Source: Rheinheimera sp. (lineage in GTDB: Bacteria > Pseudomonadota > Gammaproteobacteria > Enterobacterales > Alteromonadaceae). From it: a DNA stretch of 64,000 nucleotides. The stretch's first letter is position 1; the number at the start of each line of letters is the position of its first letter. Shown one piece after another: positions 15,098 through 55,793 of the stretch. The notes below the pieces were generated by a model that made no database searches, was not told the origin of the DNA, and worked only from the letters and a program-made list of their open reading frames with translations. Location of the stretch: contig NZ_JAUYGV010000007.1 in NCBI RefSeq assembly GCF_030690345.1, positions 248,001-312,000 of the forward strand, read 5' to 3'. The position numbers and the translations under genes are program-made.

Positions 15098-16339
15098 TCA
15101 TTTGGCGTCAATGACTGGCCGACGTGCAGCTAAACTCAGACTACCCCGAGCGGATGATTCAATATGATCACTCCACCACTGCATCATATCTCTACGGCCT
15201 TTTAAGTAGCCTGCTTTGTTATATGCCCGGCGCACCTGGTTTTTGTCTTCGTGGGCGAGGGCACTCTCTACCAGGTCGCCATAAAAACCTTCTTCGTTCA
15301 ATGTAGTACTGGCTAAGGAACGCATGCCGTGTGCAACCAACCGGTTGGCAAAACCCATTCGCTTTAATGCCATATTGGCTGTTTCTTTGTTGATATGGCT
15401 ATCCTTGTGCCGCACCGAGGGGAAGACATAAAGCTGTTCGCCACTAATAGGCCGCATAAGCTGGAGTAAGGCGATTGCCTGGGACGACAGCGGTACCTGA
15501 TGCGCTCGCCGTTTTTTCATAAATTCTGCCGGTATAGTCCAAAGTGCTTGCTCAAAGTCGACATCTTGCCAACGAACTTTAACAGCTTCGCCAGGCCGAA
15601 CCATGGTATGCAGTTGCCATTCAATCAGGCAGCGGGTAGAAAGTTGAATACTGGCTGTGCTTAATCGCTGCATTAGCTCCGGCAACTCCTCAGGCTTCAG
15701 GGTTTTCATGTTCTCGTTTTTAGGAGTACTGAAAGCGGCTTTAATCCCGCTTAGCCGGTTAAACTCAAGTAAGCCGGTATTGACGCACCAGGTCATCAAT
15801 TCGTTGATGCGCTGGCACAGCCGTGACAGTGTTTCCAGCTTATGTAACTTTTCAAGCGGGCGCAGTATTTCAATAATTTGCTGCGCGCTCAGTTCCTTTA
15901 GCGGCAAATAGCCGGCTTTAGGGAAGACATGTTGCTCGAATGAGCGCTGGATATTAAAAGCATGCCGTGCGCTGATGGCGGAAAACTTTACCTTAAACCA
16001 TTTTTCACAGGCATTCTGAAAAGTGTTTAGCGCATCTGCGGATGCCTGGCTATTTTGCTGTTCCAGCCAACGTTGTGGGTCAACACCTTCCGCTAAAAAT
16101 TGCCGGTATTTGGCTACGGTTTTCCTTGCAGCGGAGAGGCCGATAGCAGGGTAGTTGCCCAGCTTCAGATTGTTACGGTTTTCCAGTAAAGGTCTGAAAT
16201 AATTGAAATACCATGACTTGTTTCCTGCTGCACTAATTCTTAGTAGCAAACCGTCGCCATCGTATAAAGTGTAAGGCTTGCCGGATGGTTTGCTACTACG
16301 AATAACTGTGTCGCTTAAGGGTATGATTTTCTTTGGCAT
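15098..16339 (-). CDS. P4-type tyrosine integrase, element remnant (Int1)
   Basis: Site-specific recombinase of 413 residues. N-terminal DUF4102-type arm-binding domain (PLSDTVIRSSKPSGKPYTLY, DGDGLLLRI), central SAM-like domain, and catalytic domain with Arg in TMVRPGEAVKVRW, HGMRSLASTTLNE (HxxR), and ALAHEDKNQVRRAYNKA (His and the nucleophile Tyr). AGGAGCG precedes the ATG at 16339. It is clearly paralogous to the second integrase at 54348. It lies outside the prophage, between the moaA promoter and the left att copy, with no cargo of its own visible, so it appears stranded from an earlier element that used the same tRNA site. Confidence 0.93.
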   Translation of the reverse strand: MPKKIIPLSDTVIRSSKPSGKPYTLYDGDGLLLRISAAGNKSWYFNYFRPLLENRNNLKLGNYPAIGLSAARKTVAKYRQFLAEGVDPQRWLEQQNSQASADALNTFQNACEKWFKVKFSAISARHAFNIQRSFEQHVFPKAGYLPLKELSAQQIIEILRPLEKLHKLETLSRLCQRINELMTWCVNTGLLEFNRLSGIKAAFSTPKNENMKTLKPEELPELMQRLSTASIQLSTRCLIEWQLHTMVRPGEAVKVRWQDVDFEQALWTIPAEFMKKRRAHQVPLSSQAIALLQLMRPISGEQLYVFPSVRHKDSHINKETANMALKRMGFANRLVAHGMRSLASTTLNEEGFYGDLVESALAHEDKNQVRRAYNKAGYLKGRRDMMQWWSDHIESSARGSLSLAARRPVIDAK

Positions 16340-16533: not shown

Positions 16534-16556
16534 TTGGCTGCCCCAGCAGGAATCGA
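16534..16556. repeat. Left attachment core (att copy of tRNA-Arg 3' end)
   Basis: A 23-bp sequence starting TTGGCTGCCCCAGCAGG is repeated exactly at 55771-55793, where it is the 3' end of tRNA-Arg(CCU). The bases flanking the two copies differ. This marks the left boundary of the 39-kb prophage. Confidence 0.92.
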
Positions 16557-20603: not shown

Positions 20604-20965
20604 AATGTGATACCTGCTGTGTAATCTTTGCTGCTGTCATATGGCATCCAGCGCTTGGTTATTTTCTTGCGGCCTTTTTTGTCTTTGGTTTCGACAGGGG
20701 CCTTGATCATCACCGTTAAACGGCTGGCGCCGCCTTTACTGGCCAAATATATAAACTCGCCGCAGGTGCTGGGCGTGCTGAACTCACCGCTTAGAATTAC
20801 CGGCTTCATTTGCTGCATATACTTTTCAGTGGCCGCGTTTAACGCTTCCTGATACTCAGCAGGTGTAAGCTGGCGCAGACTGTCGCCTTTGCCGGTAGTT
20901 TTCGGGGTTTTCTTGATGGCCATTGCCCGGGCCTTGGCCTGGTTAATGCCGAATACTGCAAACAT
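20600..20965 (-). CDS. Hypothetical early phage protein
   Basis: 121 residues, basic, no recognised domain. An internal ATG at residue 15 (MAIKKTPKTTGKGDS) could be the real start. The middle holds EFIYLASKGGASRLTVMIKA; the tail is Lys-rich. Overlaps rdgC by four bases. Confidence 0.6.
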   Translation of the reverse strand: MFAVFGINQAKARAMAIKKTPKTTGKGDSLRQLTPAEYQEALNAATEKYMQQMKPVILSGEFSTPSTCGEFIYLASKGGASRLTVMIKAPVETKDKKGRKKITKRWMPYDSSKDYTAGITL

Positions 20966-20979
20966 GGTTATGCCTCCGG

Positions 20980-21303
20980 TTAGTGAAATTTGCCGTTAGT
21001 GCAGTGGTAAACCTCGTGGCCCAGCGTTGCCATTTCATAGGCTCTGTTTGGTCGTGGCCGTATAACGAACACTTCGCAAATGTTGTCGTTTGGCGACCAG
21101 AACGCCGCCCCGGATTGGGCCTCGTCCATTTGGAACTTTTTAACGTCCATCACTATGCGATCAAGTTGGTGCTTGTCTTTGGCGTAGTGGATCGTGATCA
21201 GTAGCTGTTGTCCGGAGCGGTCAAATTCAGACGCCGCCAGCCCGCCAACGCAAAACGTGATGCAGGCGCAGATAAATACGATTAATGCAGTTTTTGCTTT
21301 CAT
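20980..21303 (-). CDS. Small exported protein with HExxH motif (putative minimal metallopeptidase)
   Basis: 107 residues. Residues 1-24 form a hydrophobic signal or membrane anchor. The body ends with a zinc-protease-type helix LGHEVYHCTNGKFH: HEVYH at 96-100, Cys101, and a final His107 that could act as third ligand. No larger peptidase domain is present, so it would be an unusually small metalloenzyme acting in the envelope, or a metal-binding protein. Start overlaps the upstream stop (ATGA). I do not recognise a named family. Confidence 0.65.
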   Translation of the reverse strand: MKAKTALIVFICACITFCVGGLAASEFDRSGQQLLITIHYAKDKHQLDRIVMDVKKFQMDEAQSGAAFWSPNDNICEVFVIRPRPNRAYEMATLGHEVYHCTNGKFH

Positions 21304-21662
21304 GGGTTTACCTCACTGTTAACGGCAGACTGGACCAGCTTTAGCCCTGCGGGGCTTAACCAGTAACGGCCTTCATGGCATTGCAGCAGGCCCATTTGGC
21401 GAAGCTCTTCTGCCAGTGCCGCGCCGCGGCCTTTTGGTTTAATGTCGTAAATTTCAAACTGAACAGGGTGAAACGCCATATCGGCAGAATTAAAGCGAAA
21501 AGCGCGGTGCCATTCCCACGCTACATACAGGCCGGCACGCTGTGCGTATGTCATAGTTTCCAGCTTGCTTACCACTTCAAACTCTCCACCAACCAGGCGG
21601 ATAGAAGCCGGTACCGGCGCTGCAGCTTTATGCTGCAATGCAAGGCTTAACGATGTGGTCAT
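21300..21662 (-). CDS. Hypothetical early phage protein, winged-helix-like
   Basis: 120 residues from the ATG at 21662, which has AGGAG seven bases ahead. The C-terminal half (RGAALAEELRQMGLLQCHEGRYWLSPAG split here for brevity) looks like a winged-helix end in which a recognition helix is followed by a strand pair. No named family recognised. Coupled by a 4-base overlap to the HExxH gene. Confidence 0.6.
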   Translation of the reverse strand: MTTSLSLALQHKAAAPVPASIRLVGGEFEVVSKLETMTYAQRAGLYVAWEWHRAFRFNSADMAFHPVQFEIYDIKPKGRGAALAEELRQMGLLQCHEGRYWLSPAGLKLVQSAVNSEVNP

Positions 21663-21784
21663 GGTTTGGCTCCTACTGTGATGGCAGCCACAAACAAAAC
21701 CAGAAAAACAACGCATAGAGCGGCGGTTAACCAGTCAAATGGCCAGCGCTTGGTGATGTTTACGTAGTCTGTTAGTGGTTTCAT
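21659..21784 (-). CDS. Small membrane protein, first gene of the leftward early operon
   Basis: About 41 residues from the ATG at 21784: a short polar head (MKPLTDYVNITKRW) and one transmembrane segment (LTAALCVVFLVLFVAAITV). An upstream in-frame ATG at 21850 would overlap the operator sites and is less likely. Its first position after the operators suggests it is repressed in the lysogen. Function unknown. Confidence 0.5.
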   Translation of the reverse strand: MKPLTDYVNITKRWPFDWLTAALCVVFLVLFVAAITVGAKP

Positions 21785-21798
21785 TAATTGATGCTCAA

Positions 21799-21858
21799 AG
21801 TTCACATATGAACTAATATGTACCAATGGTTCATAAATGTAAAGTACCAAAAGTACAT
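21799..21858. promoter_or_regulatory. Left operator cluster (repressor binding sites)
   Basis: Three palindromic sites lie ahead of the leftward operon: GTTCACATATGAAC (21800-21813), ATGTACCAATGGTTCAT (21818-21834) and GTACCAAAAGTACAT (21844-21858). The core of the last is repeated exactly in the cI-cro interval (25212-25226), as expected for left and right operators of one phage repressor. Confidence 0.7.
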
Positions 21859-21981
21859 ATTTATTTCTTGAGTGTGTTTTTTAGTAGATTTCATGGTCAA
21901 AGGGGGTTACAACAGGAGGGTGGGGAGTTCCGGATATTTCCGCTTTTTGCCGAAGTTTTCCGGCTGTTTCCTATGCAAGCA

Positions 21982-22009
21982 TTGCTTACCACGACTATGC
22001 TGGTATAAT
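21982..22009 (+). promoter_or_regulatory. Promoter of the YafO-like toxin operon with TTCCG repeats upstream
   Basis: TTGCTT, a 16-base spacer and an extended -10 TGGTATAAT. Upstream, TTCCGG (21928), TTTCCG (21937) and TTTTCCGG (21956) repeat and could be an autoregulatory operator. Confidence 0.55.
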
Positions 22010-22059
22010 TCTGGCCCGCCGCCGGAATGCTTTCTGATTGGTTGAGTTGAGGAATTGAA

Positions 22060-22668
22060 ATGATAGTTGCTTTAAAAGATTTTGACGTAAGCTTTCCTGG
22101 TGAAAATGCTCATCAAAGCTTGCTGTTGAATAAAATCATGAAAAAAGTTGCTGATTTCGCAAAATCATCCGTTAAAGTTGATCAGAACCAACAGGCTTTA
22201 GTCAGGCAGGCGGAAGCCATTTGTGAGCTTCATGAACATACCAAGTTAGCTTATAATCAACTTAATAATTATTTTGTTGAAACTATAAGTCGATATAACG
22301 CTGATCCTGATGATTTTGCAGATCAGATGGAACGCTACAGCAATGATAAAATTGTTGAAACCATTGAGTTCTTTAGAGCTAAGTTAATTCAAATGGAACT
22401 TGCGAATACTCCTGTTTTCGAATCATTAGAAAAATTCGAAAAGAAAGCAAAGTTAGTAAGAAATGCCAAAATAAGTAACGCTTTAATAGTTATTAGAAGG
22501 CATAAGGAATTATGGTTTGATCACAACGTAAAAGTTGGTGAAATAATTTCTATTTTGAATCAATTTGTTGAATGTCCTTCGTTCCCTGCAGGGCAGTCTG
22601 TCTTTAGCCGTGATTACATTTCTGCGTTATCCTCATCAGGCGCAAAATTTTTAGAATCTCTGCACTAA
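22060..22668 (+). CDS. Unknown protein, putative partner of the YafO-like toxin
   Basis: 202-residue, mostly helical, charged protein of no family I recognise. The residues DQMERYSNDKIVETIEFFRAK and SLEKFEKKAKLVRNAK suggest long helices. It is AT-rich compared with the neighbouring phage genes, pointing to recent gain. GAGGAAT precedes the ATG. The toxin-like gene begins 9 bases after its stop with a shared promoter upstream, the arrangement of an antitoxin-toxin pair; at 202 residues it would be far larger than YafN (about 97) and has no visible helix-turn-helix. Confidence 0.6.
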   Translation: MIVALKDFDVSFPGENAHQSLLLNKIMKKVADFAKSSVKVDQNQQALVRQAEAICELHEHTKLAYNQLNNYFVETISRYNADPDDFADQMERYSNDKIVETIEFFRAKLIQMELANTPVFESLEKFEKKAKLVRNAKISNALIVIRRHKELWFDHNVKVGEIISILNQFVECPSFPAGQSVFSRDYISALSSSGAKFLESLH

Positions 22669-22677
22669 GGTAGTAGT

Positions 22678-23082
22678 ATGACATGGAAGGTTGAGGTTCT
22701 GCAGGAATCTTTTTCTGCAGTTAACGTAAAATCTGCAGGGTATTTGGTTCAGGCTTTTCGACAGTGGTTGAATAACAATAAACTACACAAAGGTTTTGGG
22801 CGATATGGTCGACTGACAATACCTAAGAGTACAGATGATGTGAACCTATCTAGGGTGCATATTTTTGATGATGAAAAGACAGCTGAATTCGATCAAAAAA
22901 GAACTCCGACATTCCACAGAAAATCTGACGCCTATTTAGTCTATGCAATAAACCCAAATAATCCTGAGCACTACCTTTTATTAGTAGTTATTGACCCAAA
23001 AGCTCATGATAAAGTAAATCAAATTAACTTTGTTATAACCTTGATAGAGTTAGCAAAAAAGAAATTTGGTATTACCTGGTAA
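22678..23082 (+). CDS. YafO-like mRNA interferase toxin (putative)
   Basis: 134 residues. The order of blocks matches YafO (Toxin_YafO): KGFGRYGRLTIPKS against YafO's FGRD block, LSRVHIFDD against its HIH segment, HRKSDAYLVYAI against RTNDEAHLVY, and LLLVVIDPKAHDKV against ILKPEPHK. YafO cleaves mRNA on the ribosome. AT-rich, and convergent with the kinase-partner gene whose stop lies 2 bases away. Assignment is by remembered motif spacing and is moderate. Confidence 0.58.
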   Translation: MTWKVEVLQESFSAVNVKSAGYLVQAFRQWLNNNKLHKGFGRYGRLTIPKSTDDVNLSRVHIFDDEKTAEFDQKRTPTFHRKSDAYLVYAINPNNPEHYLLLVVIDPKAHDKVNQINFVITLIELAKKKFGITW

Positions 23083-23083
23083 A

Positions 23084-23965
23084 TCATGCCGCCTCAGCTG
23101 AAACTATACGCTGGGCTGCTCCCTCTGCTGTGTAGGCGGCCATTACCCTTAGCTGTTGTTTATCGCCAGTTTCTTCCAGTTCAACAAAAGCCTCGTTTAA
23201 CCTGCCTATTTCCCGCTCTGAATAAGCCGGGTCGTTATCTTTTGGCCGGTACAGTATTAATTCATAGCTTTGGCTGCTTTTAAATAACTGCTGTTCGTTG
23301 TATTCGCGCAGGGTTTCTAAGTCCCACAGCTTTGCTTTGGCAGTTTTTACCAAACCGGATATACCATGCCCGGGTATTATGCGGCCAAGCTGCGCAGCTA
23401 AATTGCGACCTACATAGTCGAACCTTGTAACGCCTTTGCTGGTTAGCTTTAACTGGCGGTTAAATGCTACGGCAAGGTTAGGACGCAGCAATGTAGTTGC
23501 TTCGCGTACCATTGTGGCCCAGCGGTCTGTTGCGGGTGAGTCGTCGGCAATGCTGTCGTCTGCTGCGGTAAAATCACTCATAGCTGATAAAAACGCATGG
23601 TTGCGTGCAACTGTTCTTACCATCATGGTTAGATCGGTTACATGGCCGGTGATAATGCTGCCAAGAATTACACCAGGCACTGGTGATTGCCAATCGGTTA
23701 AGTTTTTGTGTTGCGCGGTGAAATTTTTCAAGCTGGATAATGCTACTTCAACCAGATTGAGTAATTTATGTGAGGCTGCACCCAACATACAGGCCGCAGT
23801 TTCGTCTTTAATGGTACGTACAATAACGCTTTGGCCATCTTGGCCTAAAGCTGCAACGCCAACACAAATACGCTCGCCGGAACCAACAATAGGCTCAATA
23901 TAAACAGGGCAAGCTTTGGCGCTGTATTCTGGTAGTGTCGGAAAGTGTTGTTCGCTAATTTGCAT
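23084..23965 (-). CDS. Unknown partner protein of HipA-like kinase
   Basis: 293 residues, no family I can name with confidence. The opening VYIEPIVGSGERICVGVAAL faintly recalls the first strands of DUF3037-type proteins, which sit beside HipA-like kinases in other genomes, but it is much longer. Helical middle and end (YSEREIGRLNEAFVELEETG). Its ATG overlaps the kinase stop by one base (TAATG), so both are made from one transcript, which also carries cI. Role unknown; a kinase substrate, antitoxin or sensor are possible. Confidence 0.6.
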   Translation of the reverse strand: MQISEQHFPTLPEYSAKACPVYIEPIVGSGERICVGVAALGQDGQSVIVRTIKDETAACMLGAASHKLLNLVEVALSSLKNFTAQHKNLTDWQSPVPGVILGSIITGHVTDLTMMVRTVARNHAFLSAMSDFTAADDSIADDSPATDRWATMVREATTLLRPNLAVAFNRQLKLTSKGVTRFDYVGRNLAAQLGRIIPGHGISGLVKTAKAKLWDLETLREYNEQQLFKSSQSYELILYRPKDNDPAYSEREIGRLNEAFVELEETGDKQQLRVMAAYTAEGAAQRIVSAEAA

Positions 23966-24723
23966 TAGAATAGCTCTTGTTGCTCACTGTGCCTGGCAAT
24001 TAGCCCGGGCAAGGCATTTATTCTTGCTACTAACGATATTAGCTTATTTTGCGCTTCTGCAACACAACCTATTTCGGAACACCTTGCCGCTTGCAACACC
24101 TTGGCTGTATCAATTTCTTGATACTTAGGCATTTCTGTCGTCAGTTTCTTTTTTAGCTGAGCTATGCCGAATTCGTTCTGAATACCTTTAACCAGGTTTG
24201 CTAAGATGTTTTCAAATGCAGCTGTAGCGTCTTCCGTTGGTGTTGTTGTCCATAATGCTCTGGCGTGGTCGATAAGATGCCAGTTGTCTCCACCGTCCCA
24301 TAAAAAGTTGCCGGTGTTTCTGTCGGGGTTGGCTATCCATTCATCAAACAGAGCGGCATCGTGCAGCTGGCGCCAATTCGCTAAAGCAGCAATTATTGCA
24401 TGTTGCTGAACTTGATCAGCTAATGACCAGTGCCGTTTAAACGATGGCATATCCGCATCTTCGCTGCCGATAATGTAAGTTGCGTTTAGTAAATTATTTG
24501 GGTCGCGGACAACATAGGTTTGCGTTATCGGCAAGCCTACTGCAGAACCAATAGTAGTGCACAGGCATTCTGCAATTAACTCTTGGTAGCTTACTTCTTT
24601 TATGTACAGCCGCGTGTCACCCGTGTGAGTTAATGCATCACCTAACCAAAGCGGTGAAATATTGCCAAGATCCGATATTTTGCGGGGTGCTGTATAGAGT
24701 GTGGCAAATCCAATTTGTTGCAA
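23965..24723 (-). CDS. HipA-like serine/threonine kinase domain protein
   Basis: 252 residues forming a single kinase fold. Lys42 (LYIKEV) and Glu52 fit the nucleotide-binding pair; the catalytic loop is FDEWIANPDRNTGNF (Asp127 or Asp134, Asn139) and the metal-binding Asp152 lies in LIDHAR. This D-x-DRNxxN...LIDH pattern is that of HipA-like and PI3/4-kinase-like bacterial kinases; it lacks the HipA N-terminal subdomain, as in the HipA_2 group. The start is TTG at 24723 with AAAGGA ahead, 3 bases after the cI stop. It is therefore expressed from the prophage as part of the repressor operon, typical of lysogenic conversion or defence genes. Confidence 0.75.
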   Translation of the reverse strand: MQQIGFATLYTAPRKISDLGNISPLWLGDALTHTGDTRLYIKEVSYQELIAECLCTTIGSAVGLPITQTYVVRDPNNLLNATYIIGSEDADMPSFKRHWSLADQVQQHAIIAALANWRQLHDAALFDEWIANPDRNTGNFLWDGGDNWHLIDHARALWTTTPTEDATAAFENILANLVKGIQNEFGIAQLKKKLTTEMPKYQEIDTAKVLQAARCSEIGCVAEAQNKLISLVARINALPGLIARHSEQQELF

Positions 24724-24726
24724 GGC

Positions 24727-25140
24727 TTAGTCCTTTTTAGCCAGTCTATCTGCTATGGCCTTTAGCAGCTTAATGTCGTCTTCAGTCAGCCTGCCATCTG
24801 CAGCCGCCTCGGCAATTTTTTCTAATTCAATCTGAGTGCGCGGGGTGGCTTTGGTGATCAATTTTTCTAGAGCTAGCGGTGAAGCTTCCGACACCGAAGA
24901 TGCAGAATTATAAGTATTAGTCATCTGGCCATTACCGAACAAAAGCCATTCAGCTCTTACTCCAGTGTGAGAAGCAATACTTTCAACCTTTTCTCTGCGT
25001 GGGACTGACTCTCCATTCAGCCACTTGTTGGCTGCCTTCACAGTTACATGGGTAAATGAGGCCAACCACATTCCTGCGCCATGTCTTTTAACCCCTGCCT
25101 TTTCAACGGCTACTAAGAGTCGATCACTGAAGTCTTTCAT
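24727..25140 (-). CDS. Phage CI-like repressor, HTH only
   Basis: 137 residues. The first ~65 form a helix-turn-helix of CI type (MWLASFTHVTVKAANKWLNG, SVPRREKVESIASHTGV, RAEWLLFGNGQM). The remaining part is a linker and helical C-terminus without the S24 LexA-like peptidase domain, so RecA-driven self-cleavage is not expected. No Shine-Dalgarno sequence is seen ahead of the ATG at 25140, as in leaderless cI transcripts. Divergent from cro, with palindromic operators between; co-transcribed with the kinase pair. Confidence 0.82.
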   Translation of the reverse strand: MKDFSDRLLVAVEKAGVKRHGAGMWLASFTHVTVKAANKWLNGESVPRREKVESIASHTGVRAEWLLFGNGQMTNTYNSASSVSEASPLALEKLITKATPRTQIELEKIAEAAADGRLTEDDIKLLKAIADRLAKKD

Positions 25141-25146
25141 CTAGTA

Positions 25147-25226
25147 ATTCACTATGAACTGATAATTCATTGTGCAATTCACTTGCGGAAAAGTCAGTTC
25201 ATACTTAATATGTACCAAAAGTACAT
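25147..25226. promoter_or_regulatory. cI-cro operator region
   Basis: Contains ATTCACTATGAACT (25147-25160), related to the left operator GTTCACATATGAAC, and a perfect palindrome ATGTACCAAAAGTACAT (25210-25226, arms ATGTAC/GTACAT) whose core recurs at 21844-21858. Divergent promoters for cI and cro are expected here. Confidence 0.7.
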
Positions 25227-25247
25227 TTAAGGTTTTAGATATTACCA

Positions 25248-25523
25248 ATGCAAGAACATGAACATGTGGCATCTGAAATAGCTCTTTCTGTATTGCTTGA
25301 TAACGTGCCAGGCAAAGTTGCTGGTGCAGCAAGAATTTGCAATGTAAGCGTGAGAGCGGTTTACAAGTGGATTTCTCATGGACGCTTGCCAAGAACTGAT
25401 TACACCGGTGAAACCAATTACGCCACAAAGCTTGCTGACGCGACTGGTGGTAAACACTCTGCATCTGAATTCCTTTCATGTAACAAAATTAACTTAAGCA
25501 AAGGATATCCAATTCATGGCTAA
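25248..25523 (+). CDS. Cro-like regulator (YdaS-type HTH)
   Basis: 91 residues. A helix-turn-helix covers VAGAARICNVSVRAVYKWIS with RLPRTDY and YATKLADATGG, the layout of YdaS/Cro-like proteins. First gene of the rightward early operon; would switch off cI and start lytic growth. Ribosome site is weak (AAGG is 16 bases upstream). The end overlaps the next gene by 8 bases. Confidence 0.8.
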   Translation: MQEHEHVASEIALSVLLDNVPGKVAGAARICNVSVRAVYKWISHGRLPRTDYTGETNYATKLADATGGKHSASEFLSCNKINLSKGYPIHG

Positions 25524-26019
25524 GCACACATTAAAAACCGGGGCTTATTCATGCCCGCTTATCGCTGCCCATCAGGTTGGCCATAGCTACGGTGTAGAAA
25601 AGTTTGCCGACGACACTTACCAAAGCCGTGGCGCGATGTACAACAAGTTGAACCCTGATAACGACAGCAACCATTTGTACCTGCGCGATGCCATTTTATT
25701 AACTGAGAAAGCTAATAACGATGCCATTTTAGAAGCTTGGTGTCACCAACGTGGTGGTGTATTTGTGCGTCTGCCTGATGCTGTTGCATGCGATGAAGAG
25801 CTAAGCGATCAGCTGATGCGGGTTAGTGAGGAACTTGGCGCCGCACTGGGTGAAGTGCGTGCGGCCCGTTCTGATGGCGTTATTGACCCTTCAGAGTTTG
25901 AAACAATTAAAACACGGCTGATGAACACCATTACCGAAGCGCTGGCGCTTAAAACGGTAATTAAAGGTCAGGTAAGAGATTTGCCACGCCACCCTTCGGT
26001 GGTTATTGGTAAATCGTAG
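25516..26019 (+). CDS. Phage regulatory protein CII-like (Phage_CP76 family)
   Basis: 167 residues. MYNKLNPDNDSNHLYLRDAI and NNDAILEAWCHQRGGVFV are the hallmark of the CP76/CII family of phage regulators. It stands in the cII position, between cro and the replication genes. Expected to bind DNA and influence the lysis-lysogeny decision. AAAGGA lies ahead of the ATG. Confidence 0.82.
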   Translation: MAKHTLKTGAYSCPLIAAHQVGHSYGVEKFADDTYQSRGAMYNKLNPDNDSNHLYLRDAILLTEKANNDAILEAWCHQRGGVFVRLPDAVACDEELSDQLMRVSEELGAALGEVRAARSDGVIDPSEFETIKTRLMNTITEALALKTVIKGQVRDLPRHPSVVIGKS

Positions 26020-28688: not shown

Positions 28689-29909
28689 ATGCAAAGCATA
28701 GCACTGGTGATGTCTGAAGCTGCTATAAACCGCCACGCTGCTGATGAGGCAGTGGGTGAGCTGCGTGATTACCGGTCAGAGTTGGTGCTGCGCTTTCATA
28801 AAAGCCGTGATAAAGGGACCTGGTATTACGTGAGGTACCAACAGCGGCAAAAGCAGCGGCACCGATTGGGCTACTGGCCGTTACTGAAAACCAAGGATGT
28901 ACAGGCTATGGTGCCGGATCTGGTGAAAAAGCTTGGTACCGGTGCTGAAGTGCAAAGCAGCCAGTTCGTAACGGTTGGGCAGTTGCTGCAATGGTACAAA
29001 AAGCGGGTAGAGCAGGAGACACTTAAAAGCCAGAGCCGCCGCAATGGTGTGGTCAACGTAATTGATAAACACCTGCAACGCCGTTTAGGCACAGTACGTA
29101 TTGCCATGGTGACCAAAGCGGTGATTGATGAAAAGCTGATGCTGCCGCTGCAAAGTGATGGCCTGATGCCCGGCACTATTCGCAACTACTTCGGTGTATT
29201 AAAACGAGCGTTTGCAACAGCGTATGAGCTGGACCTTATCAGCATTGACCCACTGGCCGGCATGAAGTTTGTTGATTACATACAGCGGCGCATTATGGCG
29301 CGTGAAAGCAAGCTGCTTACCTCTGACAGAATTCAGGTGCTTAACGCTGTGCTTGCTTATGAGCCTGCGGCTTTGGTGCTGCAACTGCTTATGCTGATGT
29401 TTGCGCTGCGAATAGGCGAAGCAAGGCAATTGGCCCGTAGCATGGTTCGCTTTGACCGCGGCTTATTGGCAATACCGGCACACATAACCAAAACAGGACA
29501 TGACAACAACCTGCCGTTGACAACTTGGGCCACTGCAGTGCTACAGGCAGTTATTGACAGCTCTGAGTGTGAACACCTGATCACAGTAAAACGCCGGCCA
29601 CTCACTAAAGACCAGGCACAGAAACTATTTCGCACTTCAGTAAACGGCAAGTACCGCTCGCATGACCTGCGCAAAGTGGCCCGTTCTACGTGGGCAGAAA
29701 TGGGGATGGACTATTGGGTATCAGAACGTTTGCTTAACCACCGGCAGAAAGGACAAGACCAGGCATACATAAAAGCTGATGCCTATGAGGTAAAACTGGC
29801 TGCGCTGCAACAGTACCACGACCTGCTTTTCGCTGGTTTTGATGTAGGCACTATGCAGGCATTGATGAATAGCAAGCTGCGCTGTAGCGCCAGTAAAAAT
29901 GCGGCTTAA
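28689..29909 (+). CDS. Third tyrosine recombinase in the replication region
   Basis: 406 residues. Core-binding part FVTVGQLLQWYKKRVEQ and catalytic part with all expected residues: Arg in MFALRIGEARQLA, Lys in ITKTGHDNNLPL, HDLRK, LLNHRQK, and the nucleophile Tyr in QAYIKAD. GAGG precedes the ATG. It is not next to an att site; it lies after the dnaC region and before a RuvC-like nuclease, so it may resolve phage DNA multimers or take part in recombination instead of integration. It is only distantly like the two P4-type integrases. Confidence 0.88.
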   Translation: MQSIALVMSEAAINRHAADEAVGELRDYRSELVLRFHKSRDKGTWYYVRYQQRQKQRHRLGYWPLLKTKDVQAMVPDLVKKLGTGAEVQSSQFVTVGQLLQWYKKRVEQETLKSQSRRNGVVNVIDKHLQRRLGTVRIAMVTKAVIDEKLMLPLQSDGLMPGTIRNYFGVLKRAFATAYELDLISIDPLAGMKFVDYIQRRIMARESKLLTSDRIQVLNAVLAYEPAALVLQLLMLMFALRIGEARQLARSMVRFDRGLLAIPAHITKTGHDNNLPLTTWATAVLQAVIDSSECEHLITVKRRPLTKDQAQKLFRTSVNGKYRSHDLRKVARSTWAEMGMDYWVSERLLNHRQKGQDQAYIKADAYEVKLAALQQYHDLLFAGFDVGTMQALMNSKLRCSASKNAA

Positions 29910-54347: not shown

Positions 54348-55586
54348 TTAAACAACCTTTAACGTTTTCTTCCCACTTAGCGCCATCTTGCCGGTGGCTG
54401 CTTCTTCGATGTGGTTACTCCACCATTCCATTAACTTGGTCCTGCGCTCAAGGTAAGTTGCCCGGTTATACGCCGACCGCACCTGGTTAGTATCCTGGTG
54501 AGCCAATGCTGCCTCAATAACATCATGATCAAAGCCTTGTTCATTCAGAGTAGTACTGGCCAGCGCGCGTAAACCATGCGATACCAACACTCCGGTGTAA
54601 CCCATACGCTGCAGTGCCCGGTTGGCGGTTTCAGAATGAGTGGGTAAGCCTGGGTTACGGTCTGATGCAAAAATATAGGGAGAACGGCCGGTTATAGGTT
54701 TCATAAATTCCAACAGCGCGGCTGTCTGCTGTGTAAGTGGCACCTGATGCTCGCGCTTCTGCTTCATTCGCTCAGCAGGTATAACCCAGAGCATCTTATC
54801 CAGTTGTATTTCGTCCCAGCGCGCACCGGCGGCTTCTGAAGGCCGCACCATAGTATGCAATTGCCACTCTATAAGGCAGCGTGTCATTATCCGGATCTGC
54901 GCATAGCTTAACGCCTTCATCAGTTCCGGTAACTGTTCTGGTTTTATGGTCGGCATCTTTGTAGCTTTAGCGCTGGCAAACGCCGCTTTAATACCGGCTA
55001 GCGGGTTGTGCTGCAAAATACCTGTATTAACGCACCAGGTCATTAACTCGTTGAGGCGCTGGCACAGCCTTGTAATGGTTTCGCTCTTGCCAGCCGCCTC
55101 CAGCGGCTTCAGCTCTTCAATTACAACCGGAGCTGTCAGTTCGTTAACAGGCCAGCTGCCAAGGGCAGGGAATAAGTGCGTGTCAAAAGACCGGCGAATA
55201 GTAAAAGCATGGCGATCGCTGACATGGGTAAATTTAACGGCAAACCATTTTTCCGCAACGTCAGCCAACGTTGTACTGATCTCGCGCCGGCGTTTGTCGC
55301 TTTGTGCGTCCAGCCACTTTTTTGGATCAATATCTTTTGCCAGCAGTTCGCGGTATTCCACACGCGATTTTCTGGCCGCGGCTAATGAAGTTTCAGGGTA
55401 GCTGCCGATCTTTAAATAATTAGGCGTTTTAACATGCGGTCGGGTGTAGCGAAACAGCCATGATTTGTTGCCGGCGGCAGTGATCCGCAGCTCTAAACCG
55501 TCGCCATCATACAGCGAATAAAGCTTATCTTTCGGCTTTGCAGAGCGCACTTCCGTGTCGCTTAAAGGTGTTGTTTTTCTTGCCAT
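54348..55586 (-). CDS. int: P4-type tyrosine integrase of the prophage (Int2)
   Basis: 412 residues from ATG 55586, aligning with the start of Int1. DUF4102-type N-terminus (PLSDTEVRSAKPKDKLYSLY), then catalytic Arg in TMVRPSEAAGARW, HGLRALASTTLNE, and ALAHQDTNQVRSAYNRA with the Tyr. It ends beside tRNA-Arg(CCU) with the right att core 185 bases behind its start and carries out integration there. Its arm sites are probably GTAGTATTA. Confidence 0.94.
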   Translation of the reverse strand: MARKTTPLSDTEVRSAKPKDKLYSLYDGDGLELRITAAGNKSWLFRYTRPHVKTPNYLKIGSYPETSLAAARKSRVEYRELLAKDIDPKKWLDAQSDKRRREISTTLADVAEKWFAVKFTHVSDRHAFTIRRSFDTHLFPALGSWPVNELTAPVVIEELKPLEAAGKSETITRLCQRLNELMTWCVNTGILQHNPLAGIKAAFASAKATKMPTIKPEQLPELMKALSYAQIRIMTRCLIEWQLHTMVRPSEAAGARWDEIQLDKMLWVIPAERMKQKREHQVPLTQQTAALLEFMKPITGRSPYIFASDRNPGLPTHSETANRALQRMGYTGVLVSHGLRALASTTLNEQGFDHDVIEAALAHQDTNQVRSAYNRATYLERRTKLMEWWSNHIEEAATGKMALSGKKTLKVV

Positions 55587-55597
55587 TTCCCCGCCCA

Positions 55598-55648
55598 TAA
55601 TACTACAACTTTAACACTGCACCGGATGTAGTATTATCCGTAGTATTA
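55598..55648. repeat. GTAGTATTA arm sites, right side
   Basis: TAATACTAC (55598-55606) is the inverse of GTAGTATTA at 55628-55636 and 55640-55648; the two direct copies are 12 bases apart. The same word occurs twice at 16600-16620, on the other side of the prophage. Confidence 0.7.
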
Positions 55649-55770: not shown

Positions 55771-55793
55771 TTGGCTGCCCCAGCAGGAATCGA
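55771..55793. repeat. Right attachment core
   Basis: Exact second copy of the 23-bp sequence at 16534-16556; covers CCA, discriminator, the 3' acceptor strand and part of the T arm of tRNA-Arg(CCU), so the tRNA stays whole after integration. Confidence 0.92.

Follow-up and report, generated by a model that had tools for sequence, protein, structure and literature searches.

Persistence is the main context in which HipA-type kinases are known, and in the hipB-hipA gene order an HTH gene stands before the kinase gene. The nearest described relatives of the locus analysed here are anti-phage modules in which a HipA-like kinase is paired with a DUF3037 protein. In the Retron-Sda1 operon, the HipA kinase is required for defence against Bas51, deletion of DUF3037 is toxic, and the retron reverse transcriptase and ncRNA are dispensable; the HipA-DUF3037 pair of this operon carries the PADLOC name PDC-M66 (PMC12548924). 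The second system, HipAD or DS-6, consists of a HipA-like kinase and a DUF3037/DUF1829 protein, DUF1829 being the second domain of DS-6B. There, defence is lost when the kinase is mutated in its active site, and a HipAB-like toxin-antitoxin has been proposed (PMC13092281).

We analysed a pair of genes of this general kind in the window, a DNA stretch of 64,000 nucleotides. The sequence-only reading had presented the pair as a candidate defence or lysogeny module and as the strongest candidate for an undescribed system. The latter description is not supported, since a HipA-like kinase with a DUF3037 partner has already been validated as HipAD/DS-6 and as PDC-M66. The window locus looks like a divergent, phage-rich variant of this recently named kind, with a phrog_21150-type partner. 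In the literature searched, which lay largely outside the subscription journals, this partner branch was not described.

The prophage and the layout of the pair

The pair is carried by a prophage of about 39 kb (16534-55793), which was delimited from its direct repeats, the tRNA gene, its ORFs and a replication O gene in the immunity region. It is integrated in tRNA-Arg(CCT) and flanked by 23-bp direct repeats (16534-16556 and 55771-55793), the right copy lying at the 3' end of the tRNA gene. The integrase (54348-55598, minus strand) and the structural genes were assigned from the sequence by eye. A cI-like repressor of 137 residues (24727-25140, minus strand) is the first gene of a putative lysogeny operon. 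Its Pfam matches to HTH_3 (E 7e-4) and Phage_CI_repr (0.016) are both below the cut-off, and it matches a PHROG transcriptional repressor at 3e-12. This gene faces two plus-strand markers of the immunity region, a Cro-like HTH gene in divergent orientation (25248-25523; phrog_35 transcriptional repressor, 3.6e-8) and a CII-like activator (25516-26019; Phage_CP76, 2.1e-22).

The kinase gene (23965-24723, minus strand, 252 residues), which encodes the probable toxic effector, begins with TTG three bases behind the end of the cI-like ORF at 24727, on the same strand. The Shine-Dalgarno motif AAGGA (plus-strand TCCTT, 24731-24735) lies within the end of cI, 7 nt upstream of the start. Since both the motif and the TTG recur in two same-genus relatives (L013 and L034), the TTG start is credible, as had been proposed from the sequence. 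The partner gene (23084-23965, minus strand, 293 residues), a probable antitoxin or sensor, starts within TAATG (23963-23967), where the kinase stop TAA and the partner ATG have one base, 23965, in common. This overlap is present as claimed earlier, and the translational coupling read from it is plausible on that layout. Membership of both genes in the cI operon is likewise inferred from spacing and strand. These features stand, but a scan of 20900-25600 for promoter-like patterns gave three sites (8.4 in shuffled sequences), and between 24.7 and 25.2 kb the minus strand had none.

Comparison with the homologues of Arsukibacterium indicum gave a dN of 0.18 and a dS of 2.05 for the kinase, and a dN of 0.13 and a dS of 1.41 for the partner. 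The ratio is about 0.09 for each gene; therefore, both are maintained by purifying selection.

Other genes of the region deserve mention in their own right. A YafO-like toxin gene (22678-23082, plus strand; Pfam YafO_toxin, 1.4e-16) lies downstream of a 202-residue ORF, a possible antitoxin. The two (22060-23082, plus strand) are convergent with the kinase pair and constitute a possible second toxin-antitoxin-type cargo of the same region. The YafO-like gene is absent from the ORF list at the matching place in A. indicum (L013). Just beyond the left attachment repeat, a tyrosine-integrase-like gene (15098-16339, minus strand), which by eye resembles the prophage integrase, suggests that another element, or what is left of one, adjoins the prophage. 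A further gene with a Phage_integrase domain (28689-29909, plus strand) lies within the prophage near the replication genes, distant from both attachment repeats.

The kinase

The window kinase matched Pfam HipA_2 (PF20613) with an E-value of 1.6e-10, above the curated cut-off. The catalytic set, described as complete in the sequence-only reading, was confirmed in an alignment of 70 non-redundant sequences including that of the window: E52, D134, N139 and D152 are each conserved in 70/70, and position 42 is lysine in 66 and arginine in 4. From an alignment to HipA, we take D134 to be the catalytic base and D152 a metal-binding residue. For this reason D134 would be preferable to D152 as the target of a kinase-dead mutation.

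The AF2 model of the kinase has a pLDDT of 93.5. It matched CtkA with a Z of 15.4 (rmsd 4.8, 225 aligned), HipA with 13.7 (rmsd 3.6, 202 aligned) and HipT with 12.2, and the solved HipA(D309Q) entry was among its structure matches. PI4-kinases and CotH kinases (13.0) are on a par with HipA, and the best row of a Foldseek search was a PI4-kinase. In a profile search of solved structures, the kinase matched PI4-kinases over short active-site stretches (0.02) and HipT-type kinases over longer ones (0.04). Since CtkA, PI4-kinases and CotH kinases match as well, the fold alone cannot single out HipA, and the family assignment is based on Pfam and the sequence models. Among the latter, PADLOC PDC-M66A matched the window kinase weakly (E 0.0023) and 27 of the 33 kinases of this branch. 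A kinase with an adjacent partner is an arrangement that the branch has in common with PDC-M66 of Retron-Sda1.

The partner and its link to DUF3037

The partner had been called unrecognised. This was borne out in the family databases, since the window partner gave no match in Pfam (E up to 1), NCBIfam or PADLOC, but it was corrected in two respects. The protein is a member of phrog_21150 (E 1e-47), whose PHROG function entry is unknown, and a comparison of deep profiles, together with a single bridging protein, ties it thinly to DUF3037. Iterated partner models begun from either of two phrog-level groups converged, both recovering an identical set of 97 ORFs, a count that includes copies. In a single hhalign comparison, an 81-sequence partner profile aligned with a 14-sequence DUF3037 profile over 249 columns (probability 79.7, E 1.5e-5). 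The bridging protein, L117, was excluded from both profiles. It was matched from end to end by the partner model (4e-16), over residues 9-52 by the DUF3037 model (whole-protein E 5e-5) and, above the cut-off, by Pfam DUF3037 (1.2e-7). The link is thin because direct scans reached at best 9e-4 (partner model over 14 DUF3037-type members) and 0.01 (DUF3037 model over 81 partners). With small profiles, 8 window-type partners against three DUF3037 groups of 3 to 8 sequences, no link was found (probabilities 1.0, 0.2 and 0.2). Six other partners scanned singly matched no Pfam family, and partner L005 matched DUF3037 below the Pfam cut-off (E 0.0015). PDC-M66B and Pfam DUF3037 each matched 2 of the 40 partners of this branch, in which respect the branch differs from PDC-M66.

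The neighbourhood of DUF3037 itself was also examined. In a class sample of 274 genomes, seven were above the DUF3037 cut-off, and a HipA_2-like kinase adjoined in all seven; an eighth genome, below the cut-off (L021), gave no kinase match. Within the same genus, other HipA_2 kinases are followed by DUF3037-type partners (confirmed by Pfam for L028). DUF1829 had no Pfam match in five DUF3037-type partners.

These results define the relation of the window pair to HipAD/DS-6, with DS-6 compared by description alone. Both comprise two genes, a HipA-related kinase and a partner dissimilar to HipB; the DS-6 partner is of DUF3037 type and that of the window is tied to this type by the distant profile link, and the title of the first HipAD report mentions E. 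coli prophages. In contrast, the window partner falls outside Pfam DUF3037 and within phrog_21150, and the window pair lies behind a repressor gene. Because the partner's DUF3037 test is mixed, with no Pfam match and a thin profile link, we do not class the pair as a member of HipAD.

The AF2 model of the partner is an alpha/beta structure with a pLDDT of 89 and a pTM of 0.61, a value that leaves the domain arrangement uncertain. Its C-terminal domain (144-293) has a PD-(D/E)XK-like fold, the best match being the central domain of ERCC1 (Z 10.3, rmsd 2.7, 109 aligned). This ERCC1/XPF-type match came from VIA-align 2 run on Foldseek's own list, in which Rab GTPases score about 7, and the search covered mainly the C-terminal domain, the N-terminal part (1-143) being barely probed. 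Foldseek with the partner model gave no match below E 0.001, no HipAD/DUF3037 protein was named among the structure matches listed, and the partner profile against solved structures gave no convincing match (prefoldin fragments, E 0.004). The PD-(D/E)XK catalytic set is not conserved: D215, in a helix, is the sole position in 144-293 that is acidic in at least 60% of 70 sequences. The central domain of ERCC1 is catalytically inactive. One may imagine from this fold that the antitoxin is a nucleic-acid sensor with a dead ERCC1/XPF-like nuclease fold, that foreign branched or replicating DNA frees the kinase, and that the locus belongs to a large unnamed phage-borne branch of HipA-kinase systems; we consider this extended reading unlikely. 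If it were true, phages would routinely carry the pair as an exchangeable module behind their repressors, providing each prophage with a DNA-sensing kinase alarm.

Co-inheritance of kinase and partner

The two genes, whose separation in relatives had been named as grounds for doubting the candidate, proved to be conserved together. A viral survey by kinase alignment alone gave 91 stretches with 84 relatives, of which 80 were kept. A partner-family gene follows the kinase in 78/80, and in the remaining two (L057 and L084) the contig end falls inside the kinase gene. Under a strict rule, by which the partner ORF starts between -90 and +150 bases from the kinase stop, the count is 73/80. Four viral loci (L083, L087, L099 and L107) have a longer overlap, probably due to a partner ORF called from an early start. 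Kinase and partner are fused into 584 residues in a single case (L074:5830-7584), which may be a sequencing error. Among 79 non-redundant pairs from all sources, the window left aside, the overlap is 4 bases in 29 and 8 bases in 12. When viral contigs were queried with the window kinase or the window partner as single proteins, nothing usable emerged, and a 13-row partner alignment proved too diverse to scan with. The scan of genome contigs gave one locus, L013; as G660 (L040) has an identical pair region, the two were counted once.

Kinase and partner distances are correlated across 70 non-redundant loci (0.91; maximum 0.11 in 1000 permutations), a figure that indicates co-inheritance and not binding, because the loci share ancestry.

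The pair is rare in genomes. Counting the genome of the window itself, the window partner was found in 3 of 295 genomes of the order and phrog_21150 in 4 of 369 genomes of the class. The repressor occurs in 3 of 31 genomes of the genus, and the pair lies behind it in 3/3.

Genomic setting of the pair

The phage part of the neighbourhood survey called for by the sequence-only reading often placed the pair behind repressors. In 43 of 72 viral loci, copies removed, the kinase is immediately preceded on its own strand by a repressor-type HTH ORF, as against 12 of 465 control ORFs, a contrast that leans high because the HTH model was seeded from kinase-upstream genes and the loci are not independent. 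The controls were the longest non-overlapping ORFs of at least 150 residues on the same contigs, with kinase, partner and HTH ORFs excluded. The other 29 viral loci lack a recognised HTH ORF just upstream. For a Pfam scan of the upstream ORFs, 84 loci with a partner were considered. Six had no upstream ORF, and 65 of the other 78 were used, the 13 omitted being L002, L004-L007, L025, L026, L047, L052, L070, L082, L089 and L108. HTH_3 was found in 44/65, a proportion that leans high because the omitted loci have mostly short upstream ORFs or are near-copies, and Peptidase_S24, a phage repressor domain, in 13/65. The order HTH gene, kinase, partner is seen in Alteromonas phage P24 and in a Marinobacter plasmid-prophage.

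Other copies have a different setting. In Acinetobacter phage qsb1 (L002) the pair lies between tail genes in the late region, after an Arc-like DNA-binding gene. The copies on Rahnella, Photobacterium, Salmonella and Cupriavidus plasmids (L004-L007) have no HTH ORF just upstream, so that four of the five plasmid copies examined lack one, the fifth being the plasmid-prophage. Eight cellular genomes, that of the window included, carry the branch pair; in five of them an HTH ORF immediately precedes it, whereas L012, L025 and L026 have none there. These repressor-free plasmid, late-region and cellular loci are represented by short stretches, and the plasmid gene tables are incomplete. The pair is thus portable cargo that often, not always, fills the slot behind a repressor. 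In Gordonia phage ZiggyZoo, an actinobacterial phage (L008:3137-5422), an immunity repressor is followed by a kinase that fits the kinase model and by a 262-residue protein. This third gene is in the right place but outside the partner model, and was not counted as a relative. The related pair on the Salmonella plasmid (L006:3330-5017; 6.4 kb) is accompanied by blaCTX-M-64, and kinase matches were found on further small enterobacterial plasmids of 3.4-4.7 kb.

The resemblance of an HTH gene directly ahead of a HipA-type kinase to hipB-hipA raises the question whether the locus is a HipBA/HipBST-like set, in which the upstream gene would be a HipB-like antitoxin and not a phage repressor. The kinase fold is indeed common to these systems. 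The window kinase, however, is shorter (252 residues), and the partner has no match to an HTH family. Membership in HipBA was rejected, as the partner has no Pfam match and an alpha/beta model and the upstream HTH gene, facing Cro-like and CII-like genes, belongs to a phage immunity region. Together with the S24 domains upstream of relatives and the plasmid copies without an HTH ORF just upstream, this renders a HipB-like role of the upstream gene very improbable.

The recurrent slot behind the repressor could also mean that the pair regulates lysogeny, in which case the kinase would tune the lysis-lysogeny decision or induction by phosphorylating either the repressor or some host factor. The gene order of ZiggyZoo and the Arc-like gene ahead of the kinase in qsb1 would fit such a role. 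Against it stand the repressor-free pairs on the four plasmids, in the late region of qsb1 and in the three cellular genomes. Moreover, across 55 loci the distance correlation of the kinase with the upstream gene is 0.55, as against 0.92 with the partner, although non-homology among some of the upstream ORFs accounts trivially for part of the difference. We therefore hold a lysogeny regulator to be rather improbable, and the earlier suggestion of a lysogeny module, while consistent with the frequent place behind a repressor, is weakened by the copies without an upstream HTH ORF.

A further explanation is an addiction or maintenance toxin-antitoxin set, whose post-segregational killing would keep prophages and small plasmids stable, with defence secondary or absent. 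The two-gene overlapping layout and the occurrence of the related pair and of kinase matches on small plasmids agree with it, as does the toxicity of DUF3037 deletion in a relative (PMC12548924). Addiction, however, does not require a slot behind a stable repressor, and the relatives that have been validated act in anti-phage defence (PMC12548924, PMC13092281). Addiction as the main role has, in our estimate, a small chance of being correct; the two roles can coexist.

Proposed mode of action

The pair is probably a divergent abortive-infection module like HipAD/PDC-M66, made up of a kinase and its antitoxin and expressed in the lysogen. We liken it to anti-phage modules because of its distant homology to HipAD/PDC-M66, and it should act as the published HipA-DUF3037 relatives do, with expression tied to lysogeny. 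The earlier proposal of a defence candidate is thereby upheld as a likely reading. In the lysogen, one message would presumably encode cI, kinase and partner, and the partner, as a non-HTH antitoxin, would bind and silence the kinase. Upon infection by another phage, the partner might be displaced, sequestered or made to release the kinase. The freed kinase would then phosphorylate an essential host or phage protein, so that growth would halt before the invader matures. By analogy with HipA and HipT, an aminoacyl-tRNA synthetase would be a first guess for the substrate. Expression with cI would imply that the prophage protects its host during dormancy only.

Membrane-based exclusion of the RexAB type was considered and rejected. 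A 19-residue hydropathy mean of 1.6 is the usual threshold for a membrane helix, and the highest means are 1.5 in the kinase and 1.4 in the partner. In addition, the first gene is a HipA_2 kinase, and DUF4747 had no Pfam match in either protein. The resemblance to 933W Stk and to the exclusion systems of lambda, Sbash and CarolAnn lies in lysogen-expressed genes that abort or block superinfection. Stk differs in that it is described as a PKC-family kinase (PMC8008677). CarolAnn 43/44 and Sbash 30/31, which likewise form two-gene sets with a repressor, were rejected as relatives, since these genes encode a membrane protein and a RexA-like protein, and neither paper uses the word kinase in its main text.

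Significance

This branch is under-annotated, because the 2023 PADLOC models reach 27/33 of its kinases but 2/40 of its partners. Within it, the combination of a HipA_2 kinase and a non-HTH partner recurs as cargo directly behind the repressor-type genes of many phages. The pseudo-nuclease-like fold of the partner provides a testable idea of what the partner senses. The slot behind the repressor predicts that the pair would be expressed in the lysogen and would have a role in prophage-mediated immunity.
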